Of a stretch of DNA of 29,113 bases, positions 3,384-29,006 are shown one piece after another (within the stretch, counting starts at the first letter, position 1; every line of letters begins with the position of its first letter). Where the stretch lies: positions 1 through 29,113 of the IMG/VR virus record IMGVR_UViG_3300031758_000420; one strand, written 5' to 3'. Under the pieces are notes generated by a model. The model saw nothing but the letters and a program-made list of their open reading frames with translations, did not search any database and was not told the DNA's origin. A program made the translations under genes and the position numbers. The DNA comes from a virus.

Positions 3384-3574
3384 GATTTAATGCTAGTAAG
3401 AATAGTAAGAAGTTGCATTTCGCCATGAGTAAGGCTAAAATGTTTTTCGTTAATACTAACGTCCCAACCTTCGCCATTCTTCCACTCTGTAACTTCCATA
3501 AAGGAATCTTTTTTCGCAAGATGACAGTAGTCTCGCAGCTCTGAAAATACACTATTACGGGTATAAAAGTCCAC
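3380..3574 (-). CDS. conserved small phage protein, 64 aa
   Basis: Uses a GTG start at 3574 that shares one base with the upstream TAG stop. The sequence DSFMEVTEWKNGEGWDV with a following FSLTHGEMQLL is a pattern I recall in a frequent small phage protein family of unknown function. It is likely a small alpha/beta fold. A different frame over the same bases (3355-3552) is leucine-rich and lacks this conservation. Confidence 0.75.
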   Translation of the reverse strand: MDFYTRNSVFSELRDYCHLAKKDSFMEVTEWKNGEGWDVSINEKHFSLTHGEMQLLTILTSIKS

Positions 3575-3765
3575 TATTCACTATCCTCTTCTAGACATCC
3601 ACCAATACCAATATCTGCATACACCTGATTTTCGGTATCAAAGCGAACTATTCTATAGTTTCCTGAGTAAAAATAGCCTCTAAAACCGTCTGAAATGAGA
3701 ACTTCTACATCCCCAAGCTCTGCTTTCATTTGAGTAAGCTCACTAATCATGCTACTTAGTTTCAT
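3574..3765 (-). CDS. conserved small phage protein, 63 aa
   Basis: Begins MKLSSMISELTQMKAELGD then VEVLISDG, the typical start of a family of 60-75 aa phage and bacterial proteins in which a helix is followed by a beta-rich part. No function is known. The ATG at 3765 overlaps the upstream stop as ATGA. Confidence 0.75.
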   Translation of the reverse strand: MKLSSMISELTQMKAELGDVEVLISDGFRGYFYSGNYRIVRFDTENQVYADIGIGGCLEEDSE

Positions 3766-4025
3766 GTATCTTTACCTATAGAGTTATGCAGTTCCATGTA
3801 ACCTGCATCCATTGCACGACCATACGCATCCATATCAAATTTAAAAACTGTATATAGCGCATGACGGTAGCTACCATCATCAATAAGTTCTGCCAACACA
3901 ATCCGGCGCACTACGGCGCAAAATACGTCAAGTTGTTGATCGTAAGAAAGAGAGTTCCAGGTTTCTTCTTCCTGTGCTCGATATATCTTACGAGCTTGTT
4001 CGTACATTCCGCGAACTTCTTTCAT
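3762..4025 (-). CDS. conserved phage protein, 87 aa
   Basis: I place the start at ATG 4025 (MKEVRGMYEQARK), not at 4082. A promoter sits at 4044-4072, inside the longer reading, and a GAGG site lies 5 nt before 4025. The core WNSLSYDQQLDVFCAVVRRI and the downstream DGSYRHALYTVF with DAGYMELHN match a conserved phage family of unknown function. It is helical throughout with no catalytic motif. Confidence 0.8.
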   Translation of the reverse strand: MKEVRGMYEQARKIYRAQEEETWNSLSYDQQLDVFCAVVRRIVLAELIDDGSYRHALYTVFKFDMDAYGRAMDAGYMELHNSIGKDT

Positions 4026-4043
4026 TACATCCTCGAAAGATAT

Positions 4044-4072
4044 ATTATCAGGGCTTTTACTTTCTATGTCAA
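4044..4072 (-). promoter_or_regulatory. sigma70-type promoter
   Basis: Minus strand: TTGACA at 4072-4067, 17-nt spacer, GATAAT at 4049-4044. It closely resembles the promoter of the tRNA operon at 5434-5462 in both boxes and spacer length. It fixes the start of the next gene at 4025. Confidence 0.75.
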
Positions 4073-4347
4073 GTTCTTTCACTCAGTCTAGCCTCTGCAT
4101 AAAGTGCTGAGTAAGCAATTAAATCCTCACAGCTATCTTGGTGAGGAACTTTTCTCTGCCTGTCGCGTACCATCTTGAGAATAGCGAGAAGAAGCATACC
4201 TTCGGCCTCCGTCAATTCTCGCCCCGTAATTGCGTTAAAGGCCGCAATAGTGCGGCCCATGCTACGCTCTCCAGTAGGAGAGTCATACTGTTGCCCTCGC
4301 TCACAGAGAAGGGCAGTCGTATTTGCTAGTAATGTTTCAACATTCAT
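4069..4347 (-). CDS. conserved phage protein (DUF6378-like), 92 aa
   Basis: ATG 4347 (MNVETLLANTTALLCERG) is the likely start; the upstream extension to 4446 only shadows the neighbour. The pattern ERGQQYDSPTGERSMGRT, then a LTEAEG.LLLAILKMVRDR segment and HQDSCEDLIAYSALYAE, is typical of a phage family I would place near DUF6378: helical, with conserved RG-YG and D residues, and unknown in function. Overlaps the upstream gene by 11 nt. Confidence 0.8.
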   Translation of the reverse strand: MNVETLLANTTALLCERGQQYDSPTGERSMGRTIAAFNAITGRELTEAEGMLLLAILKMVRDRQRKVPHQDSCEDLIAYSALYAEARLSERT

Positions 4348-14677: not shown

Positions 14678-15652
14678 ATGAAAGTAACTAAATTAAAAGG
14701 CGGTTCTTTAAGCTCAACTGTTCTTGTAGAAAGTGACAGCACTAAATTTGTTAGAAAATCTGTAAATACAACAAAAGATAGAGAGTACGGCTTTATACGC
14801 TGGTACTCTCAATTAAAAAAGATGCAAAGATTATCCGAACTGCATAATAGTCTTTTCCCAAAAATTTTAAATGTAGGCTATGAAAATGGCAACGCATTCT
14901 TTGATATGGAGTATCTTTCAGGGTTTACAGATATAAAAACTATTTTTACTGAAAGCAATGTTGAAGATACTCAAATAAAAAAGATTAATGATGCTTTGTG
15001 GAAAGCTTTTGATGCATTACATAGTTATACATATAAGTCTCTACCAAACATTTCTTTCTTGTATTTTATAGAAGAGATAGAGCAAAAAATTTTAGACGCT
15101 AAAAAAATGAGTTCAGATTTCTATAAATTTACTGAGCAAGATTACTACATATTCAACGGCAATAAAATATCTAATTTAGCTAAGTATAAAAGCTCTTTAG
15201 AAAAAATATTTAAAAACCTCAAAATAGACTTAGAAGGTAATATACATGGTAACCCTACATTAGAGAATATAATGTACTCTTTTGATGAAAATAGAGTTGT
15301 GTTTATTGACCCATATGAAGAAAGTGTTGTAGATACAAAATATTTAGATTATTCTATGGTATTGCAGTGTTCTAGAAGTTACTATGGATTTATAAATGAT
15401 AATTCCGTTAGTATAGACTTTCCACACATAAATAAAAACAATAAAAAAATACCTCACCCTTTCATTCATTTTAATACAAGTTTTGAAGAGGAGCTAACTA
15501 AGCGAGTTAAAAATTTAAATATTATTTATATTTTGGAGGCTTCTCAATTTATAAGGATGTTACCATTTAAATGTGCGGCTGGCGAAGTAGAAAAAGCAAA
15601 GTATTTTTATGCGCATGCCAGTAATTTAATAGAAAGGTGTATTAATGAATAA
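14678..15652 (+). CDS. aminoglycoside/choline kinase-like phosphotransferase, 324 aa
   Basis: An APH-fold small-molecule kinase. An N-terminal lobe has the ATP-binding Lys in FVRKSV (K27) and a DMEYLSG hinge (76-82). The catalytic loop is HGNPTLEN (190-197) and the metal-binding Asp is in FIDPYEE (D211). In active members the loop reads H-G-D-x4-N; here the catalytic Asp is replaced by Asn192, confirmed by codon AAC. Either this enzyme is inactive or altered, or another residue acts as base. It lies between the nucleotidyltransferase (1-nt gap) and the cyclase (8-nt overlap), the expected place for a cyclitol kinase. Confidence 0.8.
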   Translation: MKVTKLKGGSLSSTVLVESDSTKFVRKSVNTTKDREYGFIRWYSQLKKMQRLSELHNSLFPKILNVGYENGNAFFDMEYLSGFTDIKTIFTESNVEDTQIKKINDALWKAFDALHSYTYKSLPNISFLYFIEEIEQKILDAKKMSSDFYKFTEQDYYIFNGNKISNLAKYKSSLEKIFKNLKIDLEGNIHGNPTLENIMYSFDENRVVFIDPYEESVVDTKYLDYSMVLQCSRSYYGFINDNSVSIDFPHINKNNKKIPHPFIHFNTSFEEELTKRVKNLNIIYILEASQFIRMLPFKCAAGEVEKAKYFYAHASNLIERCINE

Positions 15653-16787
15653 TATCTTAAACAATTTTAATAACTACAAAAGATCTTGGAACGTAACATC
15701 AGAATTACCTATTAATTTTACAATAAAATATTCTAGCGATATATTTAACCCTATAAACCATGATATACTACAGTATAATGACTCTACTAGAAGAATAGTA
15801 ATTATAGATAAAATAATAAATGATTTGTACGGTGAAAATATATTATACTATTTTTCCTGTTTAAAGATAGATTTAAAATTATGTGTTATTGACTCAAAAG
15901 AAGAAAATAAAAATTGGGAGCACGTAAATAGTGTTTTAAAATTTTTTGAAGATCTATCTCTGTTAAGAAGAGAGCCCATAATAGCAATAGGTGGTGGCGT
16001 ACTATTAGATTTAGTTGGATTTTGTGCCTCAATATACAGAAGGGGCATTCCATATATAAAAGTACCAACTACTTTACTAGCAATCGTGGATGCTTCAGTT
16101 GGGGTTAAAGTTGGAGTTAATCATTTTAATAGAAGAAATAGAATAGGTTCTTATTACCCGCCAATCGCTACTTTTATAGATAAAAAATTTATAAACACCC
16201 AGGATGAGCGAAATATTGTAAATGGCATAGCAGAAATATACAAGTTAGCTTTAATAAAAGATGAGGAGCTATTTTTACTGTTAGAGGACAATTACGCACA
16301 ATTGATACTAGAAAAATTTCAGTATGGCGCAGTACCGGTTAGAGTAATTAATTTAGCGATAACTGGAATGATAAATGAGCTAGCCCCAAATCTTTGGGAG
16401 AAAAAATTAGACAGATGCGTAGATTTTGGGCATTCATTTAGCCCATTAATTGAAATGAAAAATATGATAAATTTATATCATGGCGAAGCTGTAATTTTAG
16501 ATTGCTTATTCAGTTCCTGTATATCTTATAACAGAGGATACATAGATAAAGAACAATTAAGTAGAATATTCATAACAGCTAAAAATTTAAAACTGCCAAC
16601 ATTCCATAAAGATTTTACTAATATTGAACTATTAAAAAATTCTTTAGAAGACACTATGAAACATAGAAATGGCAACCAGTATCTGCCTGTACCAGTAAAT
16701 ATAGGAAACTATACTATACTTAATGACCTTACTCAGCAAGAATTAAAAGAGGCTATAGACACATTTATAGTTTTAAATAATGATTAA
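15645..16787 (+). CDS. sugar-phosphate cyclase, 2-epi-5-epi-valiolone synthase-like, 380 aa
   Basis: A member of the 3-dehydroquinate synthase superfamily, which uses NAD and a divalent metal to cyclise a C7 sugar phosphate. Visible are the NAD loop GGGVLLDLVGF (116-126), RRGIPYIKVPTTLL (132-145), DASVGVKVGVNH (149-160), NRIGSYYPP (165-173), and the metal ligands E197 (NGIAEIYK), H263 (DFGHSF) and H279 (YHGEAV). Dehydroquinate synthases typically read VGGKxxxNH and IGAFxQP at these places. The forms here, GVKVGVNH, RIGSYYPP and DFGHSFSP, are those of sedoheptulose-7-phosphate cyclases such as ValA and AcbC. The predicted product is therefore 2-epi-5-epi-valiolone or a stereoisomer, from host pentose-phosphate sedoheptulose 7-phosphate. 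Overlaps both neighbours by 8 nt. Confidence 0.88.
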   Translation: MNNILNNFNNYKRSWNVTSELPINFTIKYSSDIFNPINHDILQYNDSTRRIVIIDKIINDLYGENILYYFSCLKIDLKLCVIDSKEENKNWEHVNSVLKFFEDLSLLRREPIIAIGGGVLLDLVGFCASIYRRGIPYIKVPTTLLAIVDASVGVKVGVNHFNRRNRIGSYYPPIATFIDKKFINTQDERNIVNGIAEIYKLALIKDEELFLLLEDNYAQLILEKFQYGAVPVRVINLAITGMINELAPNLWEKKLDRCVDFGHSFSPLIEMKNMINLYHGEAVILDCLFSSCISYNRGYIDKEQLSRIFITAKNLKLPTFHKDFTNIELLKNSLEDTMKHRNGNQYLPVPVNIGNYTILNDLTQQELKEAIDTFIVLNND

Positions 16788-20115: not shown

Positions 20116-20394
20116 ATGGACGTTTACAGCAGAATAATAACAAATGATGGTCTAAAGCAAGTACGGCTATACATAAATGAATTTCGAGAACAAGAATACT
20201 TACATATTCGTGAGTTCTATCTTGATTTTGACGAAGAGTGGAAGCCAACTCCAAAAGGAATCTCTATTCCGCTTGAAATAGAAACATCAAAAGAATTATT
20301 TATTGCAATATCTGAGATTTTATCACTAGCAGAAAGCAAGAAAGTTGTCGAAGAAATCTTTGGCGACTTAATAAGAGGCATATATTCAGCATGA
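20116..20394 (+). CDS. PC4-like single-stranded DNA-binding protein candidate, 92 aa
   Basis: The central stretch EYLHIREFYLDFDEEWKPTP followed by KGISIPLE has the order of the PC4/Sub1 ssDNA-binding fold: two strands, an acidic turn, K-P-T-x-KG, then strand and helix. Related small proteins are frequent in phage replication regions. The C-terminal helix (LFIAISEILSLAESKKV) may dimerise, as in PC4. A role in replication or transcription is inferred. It follows its neighbour without a gap. Confidence 0.65.
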   Translation: MDVYSRIITNDGLKQVRLYINEFREQEYLHIREFYLDFDEEWKPTPKGISIPLEIETSKELFIAISEILSLAESKKVVEEIFGDLIRGIYSA

Positions 20395-20485: not shown

Positions 20486-20514
20486 TTGACAAATGTAACT
20501 CAATGCTTTAAAAT
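20486..20514 (+). promoter_or_regulatory. sigma70-type promoter of the ligase N-terminal gene
   Basis: TTGACA (20486-20491), 17-nt spacer, TAAAAT (20509-20514), 20 nt before ATG 20535, which has TGAGGA as its ribosome-binding site. Confidence 0.85.
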
Positions 20515-20534: not shown

Positions 20535-21452
20535 ATGAAAGATTTTCTAGACCGTGCGGCGAAAGCCTATTACGACGGCAACCCAATTATTAGTGATGAA
20601 GAGTTTGATGCTCTTTCTTCTGCTTTTTCTTATGAAAGTGTGGGCGCAAGCGATGGCGAGTACCCACACCTTTTTCCAATGTATAGCCTTCAGAAAGTAT
20701 TTGAGGGTGAATCATCTCCGGACTATTTTTCCTTCCACGACTTTATTGTAACTCCAAAACTTGATGGAGCTGCTGTAGCACTTGTCTACGAGCAGGGCAT
20801 CTTCGTGCGCGGGCTTACACGAGGCAATGGAAAGAAGGGTAGAAATATTACTTATCTTCTTCGGCATCTTGTTCCGAATATAATCTATACACAGGAAACT
20901 ATTCAGATTACTGGAGAAGTAGTAGCCCCGAAAACTATTCCTAATGCACGAAACTATGCTTCTGGAGCACTCAATCTCAAGTCGATTGATGAGTTTCTCA
21001 CTCGTGATCTTACGTTTATTGCTTACGATGTTCAAAGCAAAGTTACAGATAGTTTTGTAGAGGATATGCGACTTCTTACAGAGTTTGATACTATTCTAGA
21101 TTCAGACTGGGATCTCTTTCCGCACGATGGAAAAGTATTTCGTATTGATAGTAATTCAGTTTTCGAAGAGCTAGGATATACCGCACATCATCCACGTGGT
21201 GCCTTTGCTCTCAAAAGAAAGGCAGAAGGGGTGGTTACAAAACTACTCGATGTAAAGTGGAATGTCGGAAAGTCTGGCGTAGTTGCTCCAGTAGCAATTC
21301 TAGAGCCAGTAGTGGTCGGAGAAGCAACAGTATCAAAAGCTACTCTTCACAATATTCGATTCATTGAAGAGATGGATCTTGAGATTGGGTGTCTAGTTGA
21401 AGTTATTCGATCTGGTGAAATTATTCCCAAGATTGTGAGGAAAGTAAAGTGA
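20535..21452 (+). CDS. ligA: NAD-dependent DNA ligase, N-terminal/catalytic subunit, 305 aa
   Basis: Seals DNA nicks using NAD. It contains the NMN-binding Ia region (AKAYYDGNPIISDEEFDAL, residues 9-27, with YY at 12-13), the adenylated Lys in KLDG (K75), TRGNGKKG (95-102), EGVVTK (231-236) and KWNVGKSG (241-248), then an OB-fold to residue 305. Whole bacterial LigA is about 670 aa. This protein stops after the OB domain; the zinc finger, HhH and BRCT domains are in a separate gene at 22172-22915. T5-like phages have a similar two-subunit ligase. The catalytic residues are intact. Confidence 0.93.
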   Translation: MKDFLDRAAKAYYDGNPIISDEEFDALSSAFSYESVGASDGEYPHLFPMYSLQKVFEGESSPDYFSFHDFIVTPKLDGAAVALVYEQGIFVRGLTRGNGKKGRNITYLLRHLVPNIIYTQETIQITGEVVAPKTIPNARNYASGALNLKSIDEFLTRDLTFIAYDVQSKVTDSFVEDMRLLTEFDTILDSDWDLFPHDGKVFRIDSNSVFEELGYTAHHPRGAFALKRKAEGVVTKLLDVKWNVGKSGVVAPVAILEPVVVGEATVSKATLHNIRFIEEMDLEIGCLVEVIRSGEIIPKIVRKVK

Positions 21453-21733
21453 TTGATGATAACAATATGTTTGGCTATCATGGTGTTCTTGATAAAAAGA
21501 CACACTATGTTCCAGCCATTGGTATGTTTGACCATTTCTGGCTTATTCGTCCAATGACGAGAAAAAAGCTACTAGAAGGTTGGATCTTTACGCTTCAAAC
21601 AATTCTGGATAACGAAGAGTTTGAGCCTGACGAAATTGTAGGAAATGTTCTGATGTTCTCAAACGAAAATGTAAAAGAAGAAAAAGAGAGCGATAACGTC
21701 GTACAATTTCCAAATATTCCACGTTCACTGTGA
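21449..21733 (+). CDS. hypothetical protein inserted between ligase genes, 94 aa
   Basis: A GTG start at 21449 with GAGG 8 nt upstream; it overlaps the ligase stop by 4 nt. The protein starts with hydrophobic and aromatic segments (FGYHGVLDKKTHYVPAIG, then MFDHFWLIRP) and ends in an acidic, low-complexity tail. No family is recognised. It is coupled to both neighbours, so the interval between the ligase halves is a translated operon and not an intron. Confidence 0.65.
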   Translation: MIDDNNMFGYHGVLDKKTHYVPAIGMFDHFWLIRPMTRKKLLEGWIFTLQTILDNEEFEPDEIVGNVLMFSNENVKEEKESDNVVQFPNIPRSL

Positions 21734-22092
21734 GCGGAATTTACAACGAAACATTCTTTAAAAATCATCCAGCAGAGGCCGAAGGCCCTGGGGTGTTGTA
21801 CTGCGTTATTCTTGTAAATAAGAAAACTCTAGAACGAGAATGTATTAAGATTGGTATCGCTTACGGAAAGAACTGGAAAGACGTTCTTCGCCGCAGTCGC
21901 GGCTTCACCGGGTATGAAGTACGAATACAAAAAGTAGTTCATAGCACGCTATACAAATGCTGGAAACTAGAACAGCAACTTCACGAACAGTTCAAACATC
22001 TTAAATTTAGTCCAACTTCGAAATTTGGTGGGTATACAGAGTGTTTTCAAATAGACAACGATATAATTCGGTCTGTACCAAAGAACATTTGA
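21730..22092 (+). CDS. GIY-YIG-like nuclease (T5orf172/MUG113 type), 120 aa
   Basis: The order of residues fits the compact GIY-YIG fold of the T5orf172 group: GVLYCVILV (21-29), KIGIAYG (40-46), an Arg-rich helix (R54, R55, R57), a strand with GYEVRI (61-66), then a helix with the catalytic Glu (KLEQQLHEQF, E81) and the ending GGYTECF (100-106). It may nick or cleave DNA, so it could be a homing-type mobile gene or part of repair. A GTG start at 21730 overlaps the previous stop. Confidence 0.7.
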   Translation: MSGIYNETFFKNHPAEAEGPGVLYCVILVNKKTLERECIKIGIAYGKNWKDVLRRSRGFTGYEVRIQKVVHSTLYKCWKLEQQLHEQFKHLKFSPTSKFGGYTECFQIDNDIIRSVPKNI

Positions 22093-22114
22093 CACACCTA
22101 CAAAAAAATAGTTC

Positions 22115-22143
22115 TTGACTTTTAAGGTGAAATCCTCTATAAT
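22115..22143 (+). promoter_or_regulatory. sigma70-type promoter of the ligase C-terminal gene
   Basis: TTGACT (22115-22120), 17-nt spacer, TATAAT (22138-22143), preceded by AGTTC. It lies in the 79-nt gap between the GIY-YIG-like gene and the second ligase gene, giving that gene its own start of transcription. Confidence 0.9.
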
Positions 22144-22171
22144 ACTTCTTCAATAGATTGAGAAAGCGGTT

Positions 22172-22915
22172 GTGAAAATAATTGTTCCGACTAATTGCCC
22201 AAGCTGCGAGTCCCCGCTCGTATGGAAAAATGACCAGCTCTTTTGCCTTAACGCAGATTGCAGCAGCAGGGCTTTTAAGCGAGTACAGCATTTTGCACAT
22301 ACTCTCAAGATTAAGGGTCTCGGCCCCGCCGCAATTCAAAAGCTCGACATTCAGGACATTTACGATATTTATCATATGTCTATTGAGCAAATTGCAGAAG
22401 GTCTACAATCCGAAAAGCTAGCAGCAAAACTTGTAGAAGAGATTGAAAAATCAAAGTCTGCTTCTCTTGACTTGCTTCTTCCCGCTTTTTCTATTCCTCT
22501 GATCGGTAAGACTGCCGCAGAAAAACTCTGCAAGGTTATTAACCACATTTCCGAGCTGACTTCAGAGGTCTGTGAAAAAGCAGGTATTGGCCCAAAAGCC
22601 ACAGAAAATCTATTGAATTGGTTTGAAGAAGAGTTTGTTGGTATCTCTTCTCTTCCATTCACTTTTAGTACCGCTGGCATTGAAAGTAAACCAACTAAAG
22701 GTATTGTTTGTATTACAGGTAAACTGAAATCGTTCAAAACCAAGGCAGAAGCCGAAAAGTTCCTACTAGATTTGGGATATATTGTAAAATCTTCTATAAC
22801 AAAAGAAGTCACAATTCTAGTGAACGAAAGCGGTGTTGAATCTGCTAAAACCCAAAAAGCTAGAGACAATGGTGTCTCTATTATTACTAACCTCTCTGAT
22901 CTTACAGGTGAATAA
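22172..22915 (+). CDS. ligB: NAD-dependent DNA ligase, C-terminal subunit (zinc finger, HhH, BRCT), 247 aa
   Basis: Completes the ligase by providing the DNA-binding domains. A four-cysteine zinc finger is visible (C9, C12, C25, C30) within CPSCESPLVWKN and FCLNADC. It is followed by LKIKGLGPAAIQKL and a set of helix-hairpin-helix units (about 45-165, including SIPLIGKTAAEKL and AGIGPKATENLL), and a BRCT domain from about 173 (GIVCITGKLKSFKTKAEAEK). There is no adenylation domain, so it must act with the product of 20535-21452. A GTG start at 22172 is used. The symbol follows the T5-style subunit naming. Confidence 0.9.
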   Translation: MKIIVPTNCPSCESPLVWKNDQLFCLNADCSSRAFKRVQHFAHTLKIKGLGPAAIQKLDIQDIYDIYHMSIEQIAEGLQSEKLAAKLVEEIEKSKSASLDLLLPAFSIPLIGKTAAEKLCKVINHISELTSEVCEKAGIGPKATENLLNWFEEEFVGISSLPFTFSTAGIESKPTKGIVCITGKLKSFKTKAEAEKFLLDLGYIVKSSITKEVTILVNESGVESAKTQKARDNGVSIITNLSDLTGE

Positions 22916-23647
22916 ATGACTAAGCAAAAATGGACTGATGAGCGCACGGACGCTCTTTCGAATTACGTTGGTGGCGAAGCTCCGGTTTCGCACGCCACTG
23001 TACTGGCTGCTGCAGAGGAGCTTGATGCTTCCCCCCGTTCTGTAGCTTCCAAGCTCCGCAAGATGGGCTACGAAGTTGAGTCGTCTGCGTCGGTAACGAC
23101 GAAGGCTTTCAGCGATGCTGAAGAGGCAACTCTTCGCACTTTCGTAGCGGATAATTCTGGCGAGTACACCTACGGCGAAATCGCAGCTGCGTTCGCTGGC
23201 GGCAAGTTCTCTGCCAAGCAAGTGCAGGGTAAACTCCTGTCGATGCAACTGACGGAGCACGTCAAGCCTACTCCGAAGGCTGAAGTAGCGCGTTCGTTCT
23301 CGGACGCTGAAGAGCAAAAGTTTATTGCTCTTGCTACCAAGGGCGCTTTCCTTGAGGATATCGCCTCCGCACTGGATCGCAATGTGAACCAGGTTCGCGG
23401 TAAGGCTCTCTCACTTCTTCGCTCGGGCGCTATCGACGCGATTCCGGCCCAGAAGGAAAGCCATGCTTCAACTAAGTCTGATCCCCTCGAAGGGATTGAC
23501 GTAGCTCGCATGACCGTTGAAGATATTGCCGAGGCTATCGGCAAGACGGCTCGTGGTGTTAAGACCATGCTGACCCGTCGCGGCCTTCAGGCTGCTAACT
23601 ATGACGGCGCTGCTAAGGCTGCAAAAGCTGCTGAAGCTAACGGCTAA
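22916..23647 (+). CDS. repeat protein with about four HTH/SANT-like units, 243 aa
   Basis: The ATG directly follows the ligase stop. Four related units can be seen: residues 5-55 (KWTDERTDALSNYV ending SVASKLRKMGY), 64-112 (AFSDAEEATLRTFV ending KQVQGKLLSMQL), 126-170 (SFSDAEEQKFIALA ending NQVRGKALSLL) and 195-232 (MTVEDIAEAIG ending GVKTMLTRRGL). Each has a [W/F]-[T/S]-D-x-[E/R] start and a V-x-x-K/ML-helix like a DNA-contacting recognition helix. It probably coats or scans phage DNA or regulates transcription. Base use is richer in G+C and favours GCT, CGC and CTG codons, unlike its neighbours, which suggests high expression. A terminator follows. Confidence 0.7.
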   Translation: MTKQKWTDERTDALSNYVGGEAPVSHATVLAAAEELDASPRSVASKLRKMGYEVESSASVTTKAFSDAEEATLRTFVADNSGEYTYGEIAAAFAGGKFSAKQVQGKLLSMQLTEHVKPTPKAEVARSFSDAEEQKFIALATKGAFLEDIASALDRNVNQVRGKALSLLRSGAIDAIPAQKESHASTKSDPLEGIDVARMTVEDIAEAIGKTARGVKTMLTRRGLQAANYDGAAKAAKAAEANG

Positions 23648-23738: not shown

Positions 23739-25076
23739 GTGAATCTGGCTAGTATTCTTCTCAAGTCGATTATCGCTAACAGCGATATAGACACTTGGGC
23801 GGAATCTCAGTATCACTACTTCCCATCTGAGTATTCAGAACTCTGGAAAGTAATAGATAAATATGTGCAGAATCATGGTATTCTGCCAACTTTTGAGTCT
23901 ATAAATCTCTCACTTCGTGATGGAGTTCTTCGAGAGCGTTTTTCTTCGCTTGAAAAAGTTGAAGATGTTGAAGTTGATGGCAAGACTCTTCTAGAGTATC
24001 TCAAGAATGAATATACTCAAATTGAGATTATGTCTCAGCTTGAGAAGTACCTAGAAGATACTATTGCCATTGAATCTGCCGCTGAAAATATTGAAGCACT
24101 TCAGAATATTGTTCTGAGCGTAGAAGACAAGGTAGACCTTAAGGGTGCTGCTGAGAATATGCGTAAAATGGAACTCTTCTATACGGAAGAGGATCTTGCG
24201 CTACATGAACCGCTTGGGTTAAACGGTGACTACGATAGAATTAGACCCTTTGCCCCTTCTGAACTTATTTTGATTGGTGGCCGTCGGGGTGCAGGTAAAT
24301 CTACAGCTTGCTGTAACATTGCATCAAACGTTTTTGCTGGCGGCCATTCCGTCATGTACTTTACAATTGAAATGGATGCACGAAGCATTATGCAGCGCTG
24401 CTGCTCTATTGCTACTGGTGTTCCTGCCGGTGCAATTCGAAACCGAAATCTTTCTCTTGGAGAATGGCAGCTAGTGGCAGAGTGGTGGTCTACTCGATTT
24501 GAAGATGGCGAAAGAGTTTATAATAACTACTTGGGTCATCGCGATTTTACTAAGTTTCATAAAGAGCTGACTTTGAAGCCCCTTCGAGAAAGACAACTTG
24601 ATATTATTTATAACTCATCGCTAACTCTTGCAAATATTCGAACTGAGCTAGACAAGAAGATGAACAAGCTGGCTCCTCGAGTTGTGGTTGTAGATTATAT
24701 TAACCAGGTTAAGCGAGGAGTTATTACTCGTAATCGAATGGGACAATATGATTGGACTGAGCAGATTGAGATTAGTAAAGCACTCAAAAGCTATGCTCAG
24801 GACTATAACGTAATTATGGTTTCTCCTTATCAAATTGATGGCACTGGAGAAGCACGGTTTGCAAAGGGTATTCTTGACGCAGCAGATGCTGCATTTACTC
24901 TTGATGTACACGACAAAGCAGATAACATTATTACTTTCAACTGTGCTAAAATGCGAAATAGTGAAGAAATTTCCTTTACATCTACAATGGATTGGGTATC
25001 CTTGAAGATTGGCCCGTCTACTGGCGAGCTGCCAAAGAAAGATGAATCTACAGAAAGCGTTCATGAGGTTATATGA
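23739..25076 (+). CDS. DnaB-type replicative DNA helicase, 445 aa
   Basis: Unwinds DNA 5' to 3' at the fork as a hexamer. An N-terminal helical domain (about 1-140) precedes the RecA-like core, with Walker A GGRRGAGKST (180-189), the EMDA segment (211-214), Walker B VVVVDY (315-320) and a following INQVKRG. The late FNCAKMRNSE segment should supply the arginine-finger or DNA-binding region. A GTG start at 23739 is used. It overlaps the primase gene by 4 nt, typical of phages that encode a helicase/primase pair. I do not assign a symbol because phage naming varies. Confidence 0.93.
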   Translation: MNLASILLKSIIANSDIDTWAESQYHYFPSEYSELWKVIDKYVQNHGILPTFESINLSLRDGVLRERFSSLEKVEDVEVDGKTLLEYLKNEYTQIEIMSQLEKYLEDTIAIESAAENIEALQNIVLSVEDKVDLKGAAENMRKMELFYTEEDLALHEPLGLNGDYDRIRPFAPSELILIGGRRGAGKSTACCNIASNVFAGGHSVMYFTIEMDARSIMQRCCSIATGVPAGAIRNRNLSLGEWQLVAEWWSTRFEDGERVYNNYLGHRDFTKFHKELTLKPLRERQLDIIYNSSLTLANIRTELDKKMNKLAPRVVVVDYINQVKRGVITRNRMGQYDWTEQIEISKALKSYAQDYNVIMVSPYQIDGTGEARFAKGILDAADAAFTLDVHDKADNIITFNCAKMRNSEEISFTSTMDWVSLKIGPSTGELPKKDESTESVHEVI

Positions 25077-25907: not shown

Positions 25908-25992
25908 GCCTCGATGGCGGAATAGGTAGACGCTACGGACTTAAAATCCGTTTCCTTCGGGAGTGCCAGTTCGATTCTGGTTCGAGGTACCA
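25908..25992 (+). tRNA. tRNA-Leu(TAA)
   Basis: A plus-strand cloverleaf. The anticodon stem ACGGA/TCCGT encloses CTTAAAA (anticodon TAA), with the long variable arm TTCCTTCGGGAG, a GTTCGATTC T-loop and encoded CCA. It reads TTA/TTG, the preferred leucine codons in the AT-rich genes of this window. It lies 7 nt after the primase. Confidence 0.94.
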
Positions 25993-25996
25993 AACT

Positions 25997-26164
25997 ATGA
26001 AAGAATGTGGAAGTCAAAAAGTTGAGCGAGTAGTACATAATGGAGTTAAAGCATATAGAGTTACTGAAGTTATAGGTTCTTATAACGGTCAAACTTTTAT
26101 GGCTACAACTTTTTATACTCGCAAAAACCCAACATTTGATTATATGGCTGAAGATGTGTTGTGA
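25997..26164 (+). CDS. small hypothetical protein, 55 aa
   Basis: Starts 5 nt after the tRNA. A beta-rich sequence with KVERVVHNGVKAYRVTEVIG and an ATTFYTRKNPTFDY end. The stop overlaps the next GTG start by 4 nt. No family is recognised, and a weak ribosome-binding site lowers confidence. Confidence 0.5.
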   Translation: MKECGSQKVERVVHNGVKAYRVTEVIGSYNGQTFMATTFYTRKNPTFDYMAEDVL

Positions 26165-26406
26165 AAACTCTGAGCGATCTTATACCAGACTCTGTTCTTC
26201 AGAGAGATTATCCTCATGTTGCACAAAATTTAGTAGATTTTTGGGGTACGTCATACTTTAATGACTATATAGACCAATTAGCTACTACGAAAAGAAATGA
26301 TAGGAGCGGGTTCTCCTTTGAGGCATTAATGGAAATACAAAAAGTGTTGGAAGCTCACATAGCTAGGTTTCCACACTACAAAAGAATATATACGGCTTGG
26401 TTATGA
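26161..26406 (+). CDS. conserved-looking hypothetical protein, 81 aa
   Basis: A GTG start at 26161. The protein is helical with several aromatic residues (LPD-V-QRDYPHVAQNLVDFWG-like start and HIARFPHYKRIYTAWL at the end). Similar short proteins occur in phages near replication genes, but I cannot name a family. Overlaps both neighbours by 4 nt. Confidence 0.6.
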   Translation: MKTLSDLIPDSVLQRDYPHVAQNLVDFWGTSYFNDYIDQLATTKRNDRSGFSFEALMEIQKVLEAHIARFPHYKRIYTAWL

Positions 26407-26570
26407 GAGAATCTACAATAGAGCAAAAAGAAGACATTTTTTTAGTACGTTTGTATGAGATAGTACTTATAAAGATAGTCACTGCCTCTAGTAAAAATGA
26501 GGCGGAATTTATCAGTAGATGCTGGGACTCAGGTATTTTTTCTAAAGATGAATTTGATTATGGAAATTAG
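26403..26570 (+). CDS. small hypothetical protein, 55 aa
   Basis: ATG 26403 overlaps the previous stop as ATGA. An acidic helix (STIEQKEDIFLV) is followed by a hydrophobic strand region and CWDSGIFSKDEFDYGN at the C-terminus. No family recognised. Its end overlaps the start of the next gene. Confidence 0.45.
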   Translation: MRESTIEQKEDIFLVRLYEIVLIKIVTASSKNEAEFISRCWDSGIFSKDEFDYGN

Positions 26571-27246
26571 TGAGCCAATTGGAATTATACAGATAGGTTT
26601 AGACCATAAATTTAAAATAGCAGAAGAGAACCATGCTATGCTATATAAATTTTTGTCTAATAAATACAATATAAATATATACAATTTTTATAGAGAAGAC
26701 CCTATACCAGGTTGCCCTTTCAATACTAGCGCTACTATACAGTTATATGATTTTTTTAGCTCTGCTGAGAAAACATCTGAAAAAATTATTTTGAAAATAA
26801 GATCGGACGTTTTTTTAACAAAAAGCTCTATTGATATTTTATGCCAAGAGATAGATGCAATAGTTAGTGGTGAAATAGATATTTCATATCTTGGTTTGTA
26901 TTTTTCTACCGAATACGATAAAATATGTGTTAGAAAAGATGTAAAGGAATGTTATAAAGTACCGGATAAAATAGTCATTGCTAGAAAAGATAAATTAATA
27001 GACAACTGGCTTAATACTATTCATAGTGTTGGCAGCAGCACTAGCGGAAATGTAGCCTATCTACAAATAAAAAATACAATTTCTGTAGCAAGAATGGTTA
27101 GTTGTCAAATGTATATAGTTCAAAATAATTTTGATGTAGTAGATAATTGGCAAATATACTATGATTGGTGCAAACGCTATAAAGAAAAGTCTCCAATAGC
27201 GGTTGATTGGGTACTAAATAATTTTGACTTAATAAGAACATTTTAA
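26548..27246 (+). CDS. putative glycosyltransferase-like/surface polysaccharide-type protein, about 232 aa
   Basis: The start is uncertain: ATG 26497, 26548 or 26560 are in frame, and I prefer 26548 because 26497 lies deep in the upstream gene. The first half reads GIIQIGLDHKF, INIYNFYRED and ILKIRSDVFLT, the last resembling the R-x-D segment of the protein at 28155. It has an AT-rich codon use like the 8757-17445 island. A transferase role is inferred by analogy and is weak. Confidence 0.6.
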   Translation: MNLIMEISEPIGIIQIGLDHKFKIAEENHAMLYKFLSNKYNINIYNFYREDPIPGCPFNTSATIQLYDFFSSAEKTSEKIILKIRSDVFLTKSSIDILCQEIDAIVSGEIDISYLGLYFSTEYDKICVRKDVKECYKVPDKIVIARKDKLIDNWLNTIHSVGSSTSGNVAYLQIKNTISVARMVSCQMYIVQNNFDVVDNWQIYYDWCKRYKEKSPIAVDWVLNNFDLIRTF

Positions 27247-27253
27247 TAATCAC

Positions 27254-27330
27254 GGGACTTTAGCTCAGTTGGTTAGAGCAGCCGACTCATAATCGGTAGG
27301 TCGTAGGTTCAAATCCTACAAGTCCCACCA
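27254..27330 (+). tRNA. tRNA-Ile2 or tRNA-Met (anticodon CAT)
   Basis: A plus-strand cloverleaf with anticodon loop CTCATAA and encoded CCA. The anticodon arm CCGACTCATAATCGG and following GGTCG/AGGTTCAAAT resemble the E. coli tRNA-Ile2 pattern more than elongator Met. If so, C34 would be changed to lysidine by host TilS and the tRNA would read AUA, a codon very frequent in the AT-rich genes here. Initiator Met is excluded by the acceptor end. Confidence 0.88.
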
Positions 27331-27344
27331 AATTGGAAATAATA

Positions 27345-28055
27345 ATGCAATTATCTTTAAAAGATTTAGAAGTTTCTGAGGTTACCCAAAATATTTTTGA
27401 CGGGTTTAACACTTTTATCTTAAGCGAGGATAGAAGAGTATTCAATAAACTAATCGCTAGATGTTTAATTTATAATAAAGTTAAAGATATACCCGGCGAC
27501 ATAGTAGAATGTGGTGTGTTTAAAGGAACCGGGTTATATACTTTTTTAAAATTAAAAAATATATTTAATCCTAACTCTTCTAAAAAAGTTATAGGATTTG
27601 ATTTTTTTGATACAGAAAACTTATTGAATTCTATAGTGGACAATAGAGATAAAGAAACTATGGAATTACTTTTTAAGGGAAGAGAATTTTCGCATAATAA
27701 ATCTTTTAAAGATACCATGCAAGATAAACTTTTATCAGATGGTTTCTTAAAATCAGAGTTTGACTTAATAGATGGGGATATATCTATAACTAGCAAAAAG
27801 TTTTCTCAGGATAACCCGGGGATGAAGATATCTTTGCTATATATAGATTTAGACTTGGAGGAACCTACTTATAATACTCTAAATAATTTATGGAATAATA
27901 TAACTAAGGGCGGGATAGTGGTATTTGATGAGTATGGTTTTCATAAATGGTCAGAGTCTAAAGGTGCGGATAGATTTATGAAAGAAAAAAATCTTAATAT
28001 TAAAAATTTAAATTTTGCTTGCCCAACAGCTTACATAGAAAAAATGGAAGTCTAA
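27345..28055 (+). CDS. TylF/macrocin-type O-methyltransferase, 236 aa
   Basis: Predicted SAM-dependent sugar O-methyltransferase. The signature GDIVECGVFKGTG (51-63) is followed by KVIGFDFFD and, later, LLYIDLDLEEPTYNTL and GGIVVFDEYG, the order seen in TylF/MycF enzymes. The paired Asp residues bind the metal that positions the sugar hydroxyls. ATG 27345 is preferred over the upstream TTG. It stands between two tRNA genes and uses AT-rich codons. Confidence 0.88.
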   Translation: MQLSLKDLEVSEVTQNIFDGFNTFILSEDRRVFNKLIARCLIYNKVKDIPGDIVECGVFKGTGLYTFLKLKNIFNPNSSKKVIGFDFFDTENLLNSIVDNRDKETMELLFKGREFSHNKSFKDTMQDKLLSDGFLKSEFDLIDGDISITSKKFSQDNPGMKISLLYIDLDLEEPTYNTLNNLWNNITKGGIVVFDEYGFHKWSESKGADRFMKEKNLNIKNLNFACPTAYIEKMEV

Positions 28056-28065
28056 ACTTTTATAA

Positions 28066-28141
28066 GTTCCGATAGCTCAGAGGATAGAGCAGTATCCTTC
28101 TAAGATACTGGTCGGGGGTTCGAATCCCTCTCGGAACGCCA
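28066..28141 (+). tRNA. tRNA-Arg(TCT)
   Basis: A plus-strand cloverleaf. The anticodon stem GTATC/GATAC encloses CTTCTAA (anticodon TCT, reads AGA), with GGTTCGAATCC in the T-arm and encoded CCA. AGA is the main arginine codon of the AT-rich modules. Confidence 0.94.
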
Positions 28142-28154
28142 GACAGGTGTAAAT

Positions 28155-28919
28155 ATGCTAAAAGAAAGTGAAATAGCTGTTTGTATAAGTGGTCTTGCAA
28201 GAGATGGCTATGAAACTGCACTTAAAAATGTATACAAAGTATTTCCCTACGATACGTTTTACCTGCACTGGGATGGTTATGGTAATTTAAATTTACCAAA
28301 TTGCCTATATGTAAAAGAACCCGAGTATGATTACCATAGTACTCTAGATACAAAAATCAAGCCAGATTGCAAAATATGGGAAGGCGTAAATAGAAAGCCT
28401 AATTTATTGAATAATGATCGTGGTGGAAAAATGTGGTGGAAGCCAAACTACTATAATCATACTAAAGGTGGTTCAAAACAACTATTGGGCCATTACTACT
28501 TAATTAATAGTTTGCCAGAAAAATATAAATTAATTATACGAATTCGTTACGATTTAATTGTATCAACAAAAGTTAATTTCACGCCCTATTTAGAAATGGC
28601 TCAAGACGGCACAACTGTAGGTTTCGCGGGCTCTAGACCTGGTATGTATGGCCCCGAACAAAAATTAACTCCCCATTTTAATTGTAATTGCAATATGTGT
28701 TCTGGTTGGTACTTATGGGATAATATGTATTTCCACCAAAGGGATAAGTTTAAAAACGTAGAAAGTCTACATAAAGAAAAAAATCTTCTTGGGGCTGAAT
28801 GGGGTTTGTACCAAATACTATGTCATCAATGGCAAAATAAAAATTTTTTAAATGTTTGGGGCGGTGCGGGCATTATAAGGTATTGTTCGGCTCCAAAAGA
28901 AGAATGGATAAACTTATAG
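28155..28919 (+). CDS. WavE/capsular polysaccharide-type transferase-like protein, 254 aa
   Basis: Begins SEIAVCISGLARDGYETALKN, the typical start of the WavE-like and related polysaccharide-synthesis proteins. It carries the middle motif LIIRIRYDLIVS (about residues 140-151), whose R-x-R-x-D is a hallmark of that group, and several Trp/Cys-rich segments (CNCNMCSGWYLWDN). It may add a sugar to a surface structure. The stop codon's last base is the first base of the next tRNA. Confidence 0.7.
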   Translation: MLKESEIAVCISGLARDGYETALKNVYKVFPYDTFYLHWDGYGNLNLPNCLYVKEPEYDYHSTLDTKIKPDCKIWEGVNRKPNLLNNDRGGKMWWKPNYYNHTKGGSKQLLGHYYLINSLPEKYKLIIRIRYDLIVSTKVNFTPYLEMAQDGTTVGFAGSRPGMYGPEQKLTPHFNCNCNMCSGWYLWDNMYFHQRDKFKNVESLHKEKNLLGAEWGLYQILCHQWQNKNFLNVWGGAGIIRYCSAPKEEWINL

Positions 28920-29006
28920 GAAAGATGGCAGAGCGGTTTAATGCAACAGTCTTGAAAACTGTCGAAGGGAGACCTTCCGTGAGTTCAAATCTCACTCTTT
29001 CCACCA
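28919..29006 (+). tRNA. tRNA-Ser(TGA)
   Basis: A plus-strand cloverleaf with a serine-type long variable arm (GAAGGGAGACCTTC). The anticodon stem ACAGT/ACTGT encloses CTTGAAA (anticodon TGA, reads TCA), and CCA is encoded. It overlaps the preceding stop by one base. Confidence 0.93.

Follow-up and report, generated by a model that had tools for sequence, protein, structure and literature searches.

Why does a phage spread its NAD-dependent DNA ligase over two genes with other genes and a promoter between them, and did a mobile gene cause or exploit the split? The question is posed by the window analysed here, a stretch of 29,113 nucleotides that comes from a 29-kb IMG/VR fragment. The window is a fragment of a T5-like phage; its annotated gene order – PC4-like regulator, ligA, a slot, ligB, D5, DnaB-like helicase and primase – equals that in T5 and in every T5-like phage compared in a synteny check, with T5 sharing the order D3 region, ligA, promoter, ligB, D5, helicase and primase. 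At the DNA level the window shows little similarity to isolates (26 records matched, covering at most 7% of the query), and both ligase proteins, LigA and LigB, are less than 60% identical to any isolate protein. Among distinct relatives the closest is a 106-kb contig, at 78% (LigA) and 83% (LigB) identity.

The sequence-only reading had described a ligase encoded by two genes, with a promoter and two further genes, one of them GIY-YIG-like, in between, and every element is found where that reading had placed it. On the plus strand, a PC4-like transcriptional regulator (20116–20394), syntenic with other T5-like phages, is followed by a sigma-70-type promoter (20486–20514; T5 is also annotated with a promoter just 5′ of ligA) and by ligA itself (20535–21452, 305 aa, with a GAGGA ribosome-binding site upstream). 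Then come ORF2 (21449–21733), a 94 aa orphan, and ORF3 (21730–22092), a 120 aa stand-alone T5orf172/GIY-YIG nuclease domain. The ORF2 start overlaps the ligA stop by 4 nt (GTGA) and the ORF3 start overlaps the ORF2 stop likewise, and these head-to-tail overlaps suggest that ligA, ORF2 and ORF3 are coupled in translation as a single unit. The ligB promoter (TAGTTCTTGACT-N17-TATAAT, 22109–22143) separates this unit from ligB (22172–22915, 247 aa, GTG start). Directly 3′ of ligB lies a gene for a D5-like transcription/replication protein (22916–23647; PHROG 323, 5e-46), and beyond it that for the DnaB-like replicative helicase (23739–25076; identified by Pfam and PHROG), both syntenic markers of T5-like phages.

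Each ligase gene does have its own start and its own promoter, as had been proposed from positions 20486 and 22115: TTGACA-17-TAAAAT and TTGACT-17-TATAAT each score 11/12. Among 104 distinct 100-bp regions 5′ of ligB, 95 score 11 or 12 of 12 as compared to none of 104 shuffled copies, and the ligB promoter is therefore real rather than a chance match. LigA, ORF2 and ORF3 would share one promoter, with LigB being expressed from its own near-consensus one. An extended motif, WAGTTCTTGAC, occurs exactly four times in the window, at 898 (−), 17443 (+), 19234 (+) and 22109 (+), and eight times with up to one mismatch as compared to 1.2 expected; it is probably a phage-wide promoter class.

The domain boundary between the two halves is where the sequence-only reading had it, with the first gene stopping after the OB domain and the second starting at the zinc finger. 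LigA matches Pfam DNA_ligase_aden (9e-27) and DNA_ligase_OB (7e-25, reaching residue 304) as well as PHROG 3359 over residues 1–304 (E 3e-105), and is composed of a short Ia segment, the nucleotidyltransferase domain and the OB fold, right after which it ends. Residues K75, D77 and G78 of its KLDG motif (KxDG type) are invariant in the alignment. LigB belongs to PHROG 3498 (E 7e-58) and carries a C4 zinc finger at residues 8–30, with C9, C12, C25 and C30 invariant in the alignment, followed by HhH and BRCT regions; the individual Pfam matches to zinc finger, HhH and BRCT are weak and lie under the cut-offs. LigA and LigB are 46% and 36% identical to their T5 counterparts. We also note that in LigA an arginine, R203, replaces the lysine of motif DGxxxK (DGVVVK in 1v9p); the six aligned T5-like LigA halves all share this arginine, as does chain A of PDB entry 9hu3.

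The two genes that lie between the halves differ in how much can be said of them. For ORF2, no Pfam or PHROG family match and no isolate homologue was found, its model is of low confidence, and its homologues, 29–78% identical, were found in this slot of relatives and nowhere else. ORF3, judged by sequence and predicted structure, is a T5orf172-type GIY-YIG nuclease domain with presumptive nuclease activity, close to the Pfam cut-off by sequence: its T5orf172 match (E 0.0037) falls just under the cut-off, that of the nearest relative (L008, 0.00034) falls over it, and PHROG 681 ‘endonuclease’ is matched at 2.6e-14. The GIY-YIG residues Y24, K40-x-G42, R55, E81 and H85 are invariant in 67/67 sequences. 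The AlphaFold2 model (pLDDT 92.5) has 47 viral structure matches at 1e-3 or below, the named ones being mostly of the T5orf172/CapR type. Its similarity to solved structures is modest, with Slx1 on top (Z 5.3) and I-TevI and UvrC at Z 3.1; Foldseek of the model against the PDB gave no match under 0.001, and a profile sequence search of the PDB gave chance matches only. Searches of bacterial genomes recovered only three distant matches at 29–30% identity, and the best match in isolates is 36% identical, with none within a T5-like ligase locus.

T5orf172 genes are regarded as homing endonucleases, are common in T5-like phages, and in 87% of cases carry zinc-finger DNA-binding domains (PMC10448857); T5 carries such genes elsewhere in its genome. 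With these homing endonucleases, which include the ICP1 tcg genes (PMC10448857), ORF3 shares the GIY-YIG-type domain, the motif residues and the predicted fold, but it differs from them in being vertically inherited, in occupying one fixed locus and in having no zinc-finger DNA-binding domain: CapR, DUF4379 and DUF723 are all absent from the window’s ORF3, the 120 aa of which are the nuclease domain alone. A single ORF3 relative, L176, does have zinc fingers; its homologue (3399–4124), at the same locus, is fused to DUF4379 and CapR domains, and that of its sister L058 is the bare domain. As the relatives of L176 are without zinc fingers, parsimony makes them a gain.

To what extent ORF3 behaves as a mobile gene can be read from its distribution. 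A search with ORF3 alone recovered at least 580 relatives in viral contigs, and 72 further loci were kept from it; 60 of these 72 are flanked by both ligase halves, the other 12, which are contig fragments, by one half, and the distance from ORF3 to ligB is 65–78 nt in 69 of 71. On the ligase tree (68 taxa) the presence of ORF3 requires 3 changes as compared to 21.5 in shuffles, and its distances follow those of LigB (correlation 0.82 for ORF3–LigB, 0.83 for LigA–LigB and 0.65 for ORF3–LigA); patchy presence or horizontal spread of ORF3 among close relatives was accordingly not seen. A history in which a single branch separates all ORF3 carriers from the rest, without any loss, was rejected (p-AU 0.0003). 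ORF3 was lost in the clade of L025, L031 and L048, in which L025 keeps ORF2 and the other two keep the promoter only, and is therefore dispensable. Finally, over 281 pairs, which are not independent, the median omega is 0.060 for ORF3, 0.135 for LigA and 0.169 for LigB, the value for ORF3 lying below that for LigA in 274 pairs. ORF3 is thus fixed in the slot across a large uncultured clade, inherited together with the ligase and under stronger purifying selection than the ligase itself. The pattern looks like that of a long-settled gene kept by selection and not of a fresh invader.

This pattern makes immobility of ORF3 likely but falls short of proof, because homing genes, too, may stay confined to a single site. 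ORF3 could be a still active selfish homing endonuclease that occupies the ligA–ligB intergenic region, as mobE does between nrdA and nrdB of T4. The layouts are alike: mobE overlaps the upstream stop, and a promoter lies between the endonuclease gene and the downstream gene (PMC2988022). The catalytic residues of ORF3 are intact, its locus is single and fixed, and its T5orf172 relatives count as homing endonucleases (PMC10448857). Against this, only one member has a DNA-binding domain, ORF3 tracks the ligase in both its distribution and its distances, and its omega is below that of the ligase; we consider an active homing endonuclease rather doubtful. The evidence instead suggests that in ORF3 a nuclease domain of the homing type has become a resident gene of the phage. 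As such, it would most likely serve phage DNA metabolism by nicking DNA or cutting branched structures. One may tentatively go a step further and propose that ORF3, co-inherited across the uncultured T5-like clade, is domesticated and works with the two-part ligase, for example by introducing nicks or cleaving branched DNA for the ligase to seal afterwards; we put this forward as a possibility.

The site that ORF3 occupies is variable in length. The ligA–ligB gap ranges from 56 to 3829 bp among 68 representatives and is 300 bp or longer in 52 of them, whereas neighbouring gaps in the same representatives vary little (ligB–D5, −14 to 32 bp; D5–helicase, 51–270 bp). Besides ORF2-like orphans, the contents include glutaredoxin/thioredoxin, carbamoyltransferase, peptide deformylase and 2OG-Fe(II) oxygenase genes. 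The stretch from the ligA stop to the ligB promoter is a variable cargo slot that tolerates insertions. In L061, L070, L071, L174 and L175, with a gap of approximately 3.8 kb, a nodulation-type carbamoyltransferase, a peptide deformylase and a DUF6071 protein are encoded between the halves.

Was the ligase then split by such an insertion? That T5-like phages encode their ligase as two subunits is borne out by T5 and by all the T5-like phages sampled. The T5 genes ligA and ligB (T5.116/T5.117, AY543070), like those of the other Demerecviridae sampled, have the same split point as the window and separate promoters; the T5 order is ligA, P-K28b, P-K28a, ligB, the gap of approximately 200 bp holding no intervening gene, in contrast to the window, where ORF2 and the GIY-YIG ORF precede the ligB promoter. 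In PR1, Sugarland, My1 and AhSzw-1, too, ligB follows ligA with no intervening gene. AAS21 and VCPH have one annotated ORF between the halves, 70E37-2 one or two, PG07 two, D254 two or three and Thalassa three, including a DprA-like gene. In compact environmental relatives the gap is 80–116 bp and contains the promoter and stop codons and nothing else. Read-through fusion in those compact relatives in which the gap is in frame (84–99 nt) was considered and rejected, as 2–5 stops and the promoter lie inside.

A survey of relatives for a fused form had been set beforehand as the check on the idea that the split was caused by an insertion. It found relatives with the same genes between the halves, and no fused T5-like ligase among 128 environmental and isolate loci with both halves, most of the surveyed loci being metagenomic fragments. 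This is the outcome that had been named in advance as refuting the idea. An inserted gene is expected to leave an unsplit gene in close relatives that lack the insert; here the insert-free relatives are split as well. As T5, the Providencia relative and the compact clade are split without it, the nuclease gene was not needed for the split. Fused NAD+ ligases of the phages PDCC-1, Psa21 and G (PHROG 3869) have the same domains in the same order as the window’s two halves, but are single polypeptides of approximately 650–685 aa from outside the T5-like clade. Used as the outgroup of the ligase tree, they fall outside the 68 split representatives, although the rooting is weak because this outgroup is distant.

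Taken on its merits, the alternative – that a homing endonuclease inserted into a continuous ligase gene, splitting it at the OB/zinc-finger boundary, and then shrank or was lost in most lineages while the split was retained, as with mobE in Aeh1 nrdA – has precedents in T4-like phages, where endonuclease-split genes give working pieces (PMC2988022). In T4 nrdA-mobE-nrdB and the split nrdA of Aeh1, as in the window, an endonuclease gene lies between two genes of one enzyme; there, however, related phages with an intact gene or an empty site reveal the insertion, whereas no unsplit T5-like relative of the window was found (PMC2988022). ORF3 is also of an endonuclease class frequent in T5-like phages (PMC10448857), is found attached to zinc fingers (DUF4379 and CapR) in L176 at the same locus, and occurs in two separated parts of the base of the ligase tree. 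The base being unresolved, an ancient root insertion of ORF3 with several later losses is still conceivable. Nevertheless, the ligase is split in cultured T5-like phages and in the compact clade even though they have no ORF3, the clade has no fused form, the L176 zinc fingers are a gain by parsimony, and ORF3 sits 5′ of an intact, conserved ligB promoter, all of which makes this scenario improbable. Of the earlier suggestion that a mobile gene caused or exploited the split, the first part is not supported, given that T5, Sugarland, My1, PR1, AhSzw-1 and the compact clade are split without the nuclease. The second part is plausible in a qualified form: ORF3 is the nuclease domain of a phage homing-endonuclease class, and L176 has the typical zinc fingers at this locus, yet its behaviour is that of a vertically inherited and strongly conserved gene rather than of a recent mobile insert. 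The joint explanation that we favour with considerable confidence is that the ligase was ancestrally two polypeptides in T5-like phages, and that the slot between their genes came, in the large uncultured clade to which this phage belongs, to hold a settled homing-type nuclease domain.

How the two polypeptides would work together can be proposed from a solved relative. PDB entry 9hu3 provides the best match of the window’s LigA (chain A, 4e-70) and of the LigB profile (chain B, 4e-79). Both 9hu3 and 9i5i hold LigA-type and LigB-type chains, and their LigB-type chain is identical to LigB of the T5-like Providencia phages vB_PreS_PR1 and PSTCR5, the ligase of which is a sequence relative of both window halves, albeit, in PR1, with no ORF between the ligase genes. 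The question whether the two halves form one complex is probably answered by these entries for the Providencia-phage relative. By analogy with this relative, and at moderate identity, LigA and LigB of the window most likely assemble into one nick-sealing heterodimer, in which LigA would take the adenylate from NAD+ on Lys75 and LigB would supply the HhH and zinc-finger part that clamps the nicked DNA. That LigA works by itself, with LigB as a DNA-binding accessory in its own right, making ‘split ligase’ a misnomer, is very improbable: while LigA does carry the nucleotidyltransferase motifs and each half has a separate promoter, both chain types are found in one solved entry of a relative (9hu3), LigB corresponds colinearly to the C-terminal region of bacterial LigA (2owo, residues 402–666), and both halves are retained in every complete T5-like locus examined.

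The split ligase core is already known for T5-like phages and is ordinary for the phage family. More useful than the split itself is what the survey brought out beside it, namely a variable insertion slot next to a strongly conserved promoter. The slot’s occupant is worth following, as a homing-type nuclease domain that has no DNA-binding part and has become fixed, under tight conservation, in a large uncultured clade. Should ORF3 serve the phage, it would be a clear-cut example of a selfish nuclease that has become a resident, beside the enzyme that would seal its cuts. T5 virion DNA carries programmed nicks, which is an old puzzle, and this puzzle makes the idea of a nuclease–ligase partnership testable; a literature search for the gene that makes the T5 nicks found only background on phage tf.

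Two other regions of the window drew our attention. Between 10000 and 17450 the GC content is 0.27–0.34 as compared to about 0.40, and the genes encode an NTP-transferase, a weakly APH-like protein, a dehydroquinate-synthase-like protein (15645–16787) and a short-chain dehydrogenase; the region resembles a cassette for sugar or cyclitol biosynthesis that a T5-like phage has acquired. The position immediately 3′ of the primase is occupied in T5 by the DNA polymerase; in the window it holds four tRNA genes (Leu, Met, Arg and Ser) in alternation with ORFs of 240–254 aa (25908–29006), and one of these ORFs (27333–28055) encodes a TylF-like methyltransferase.
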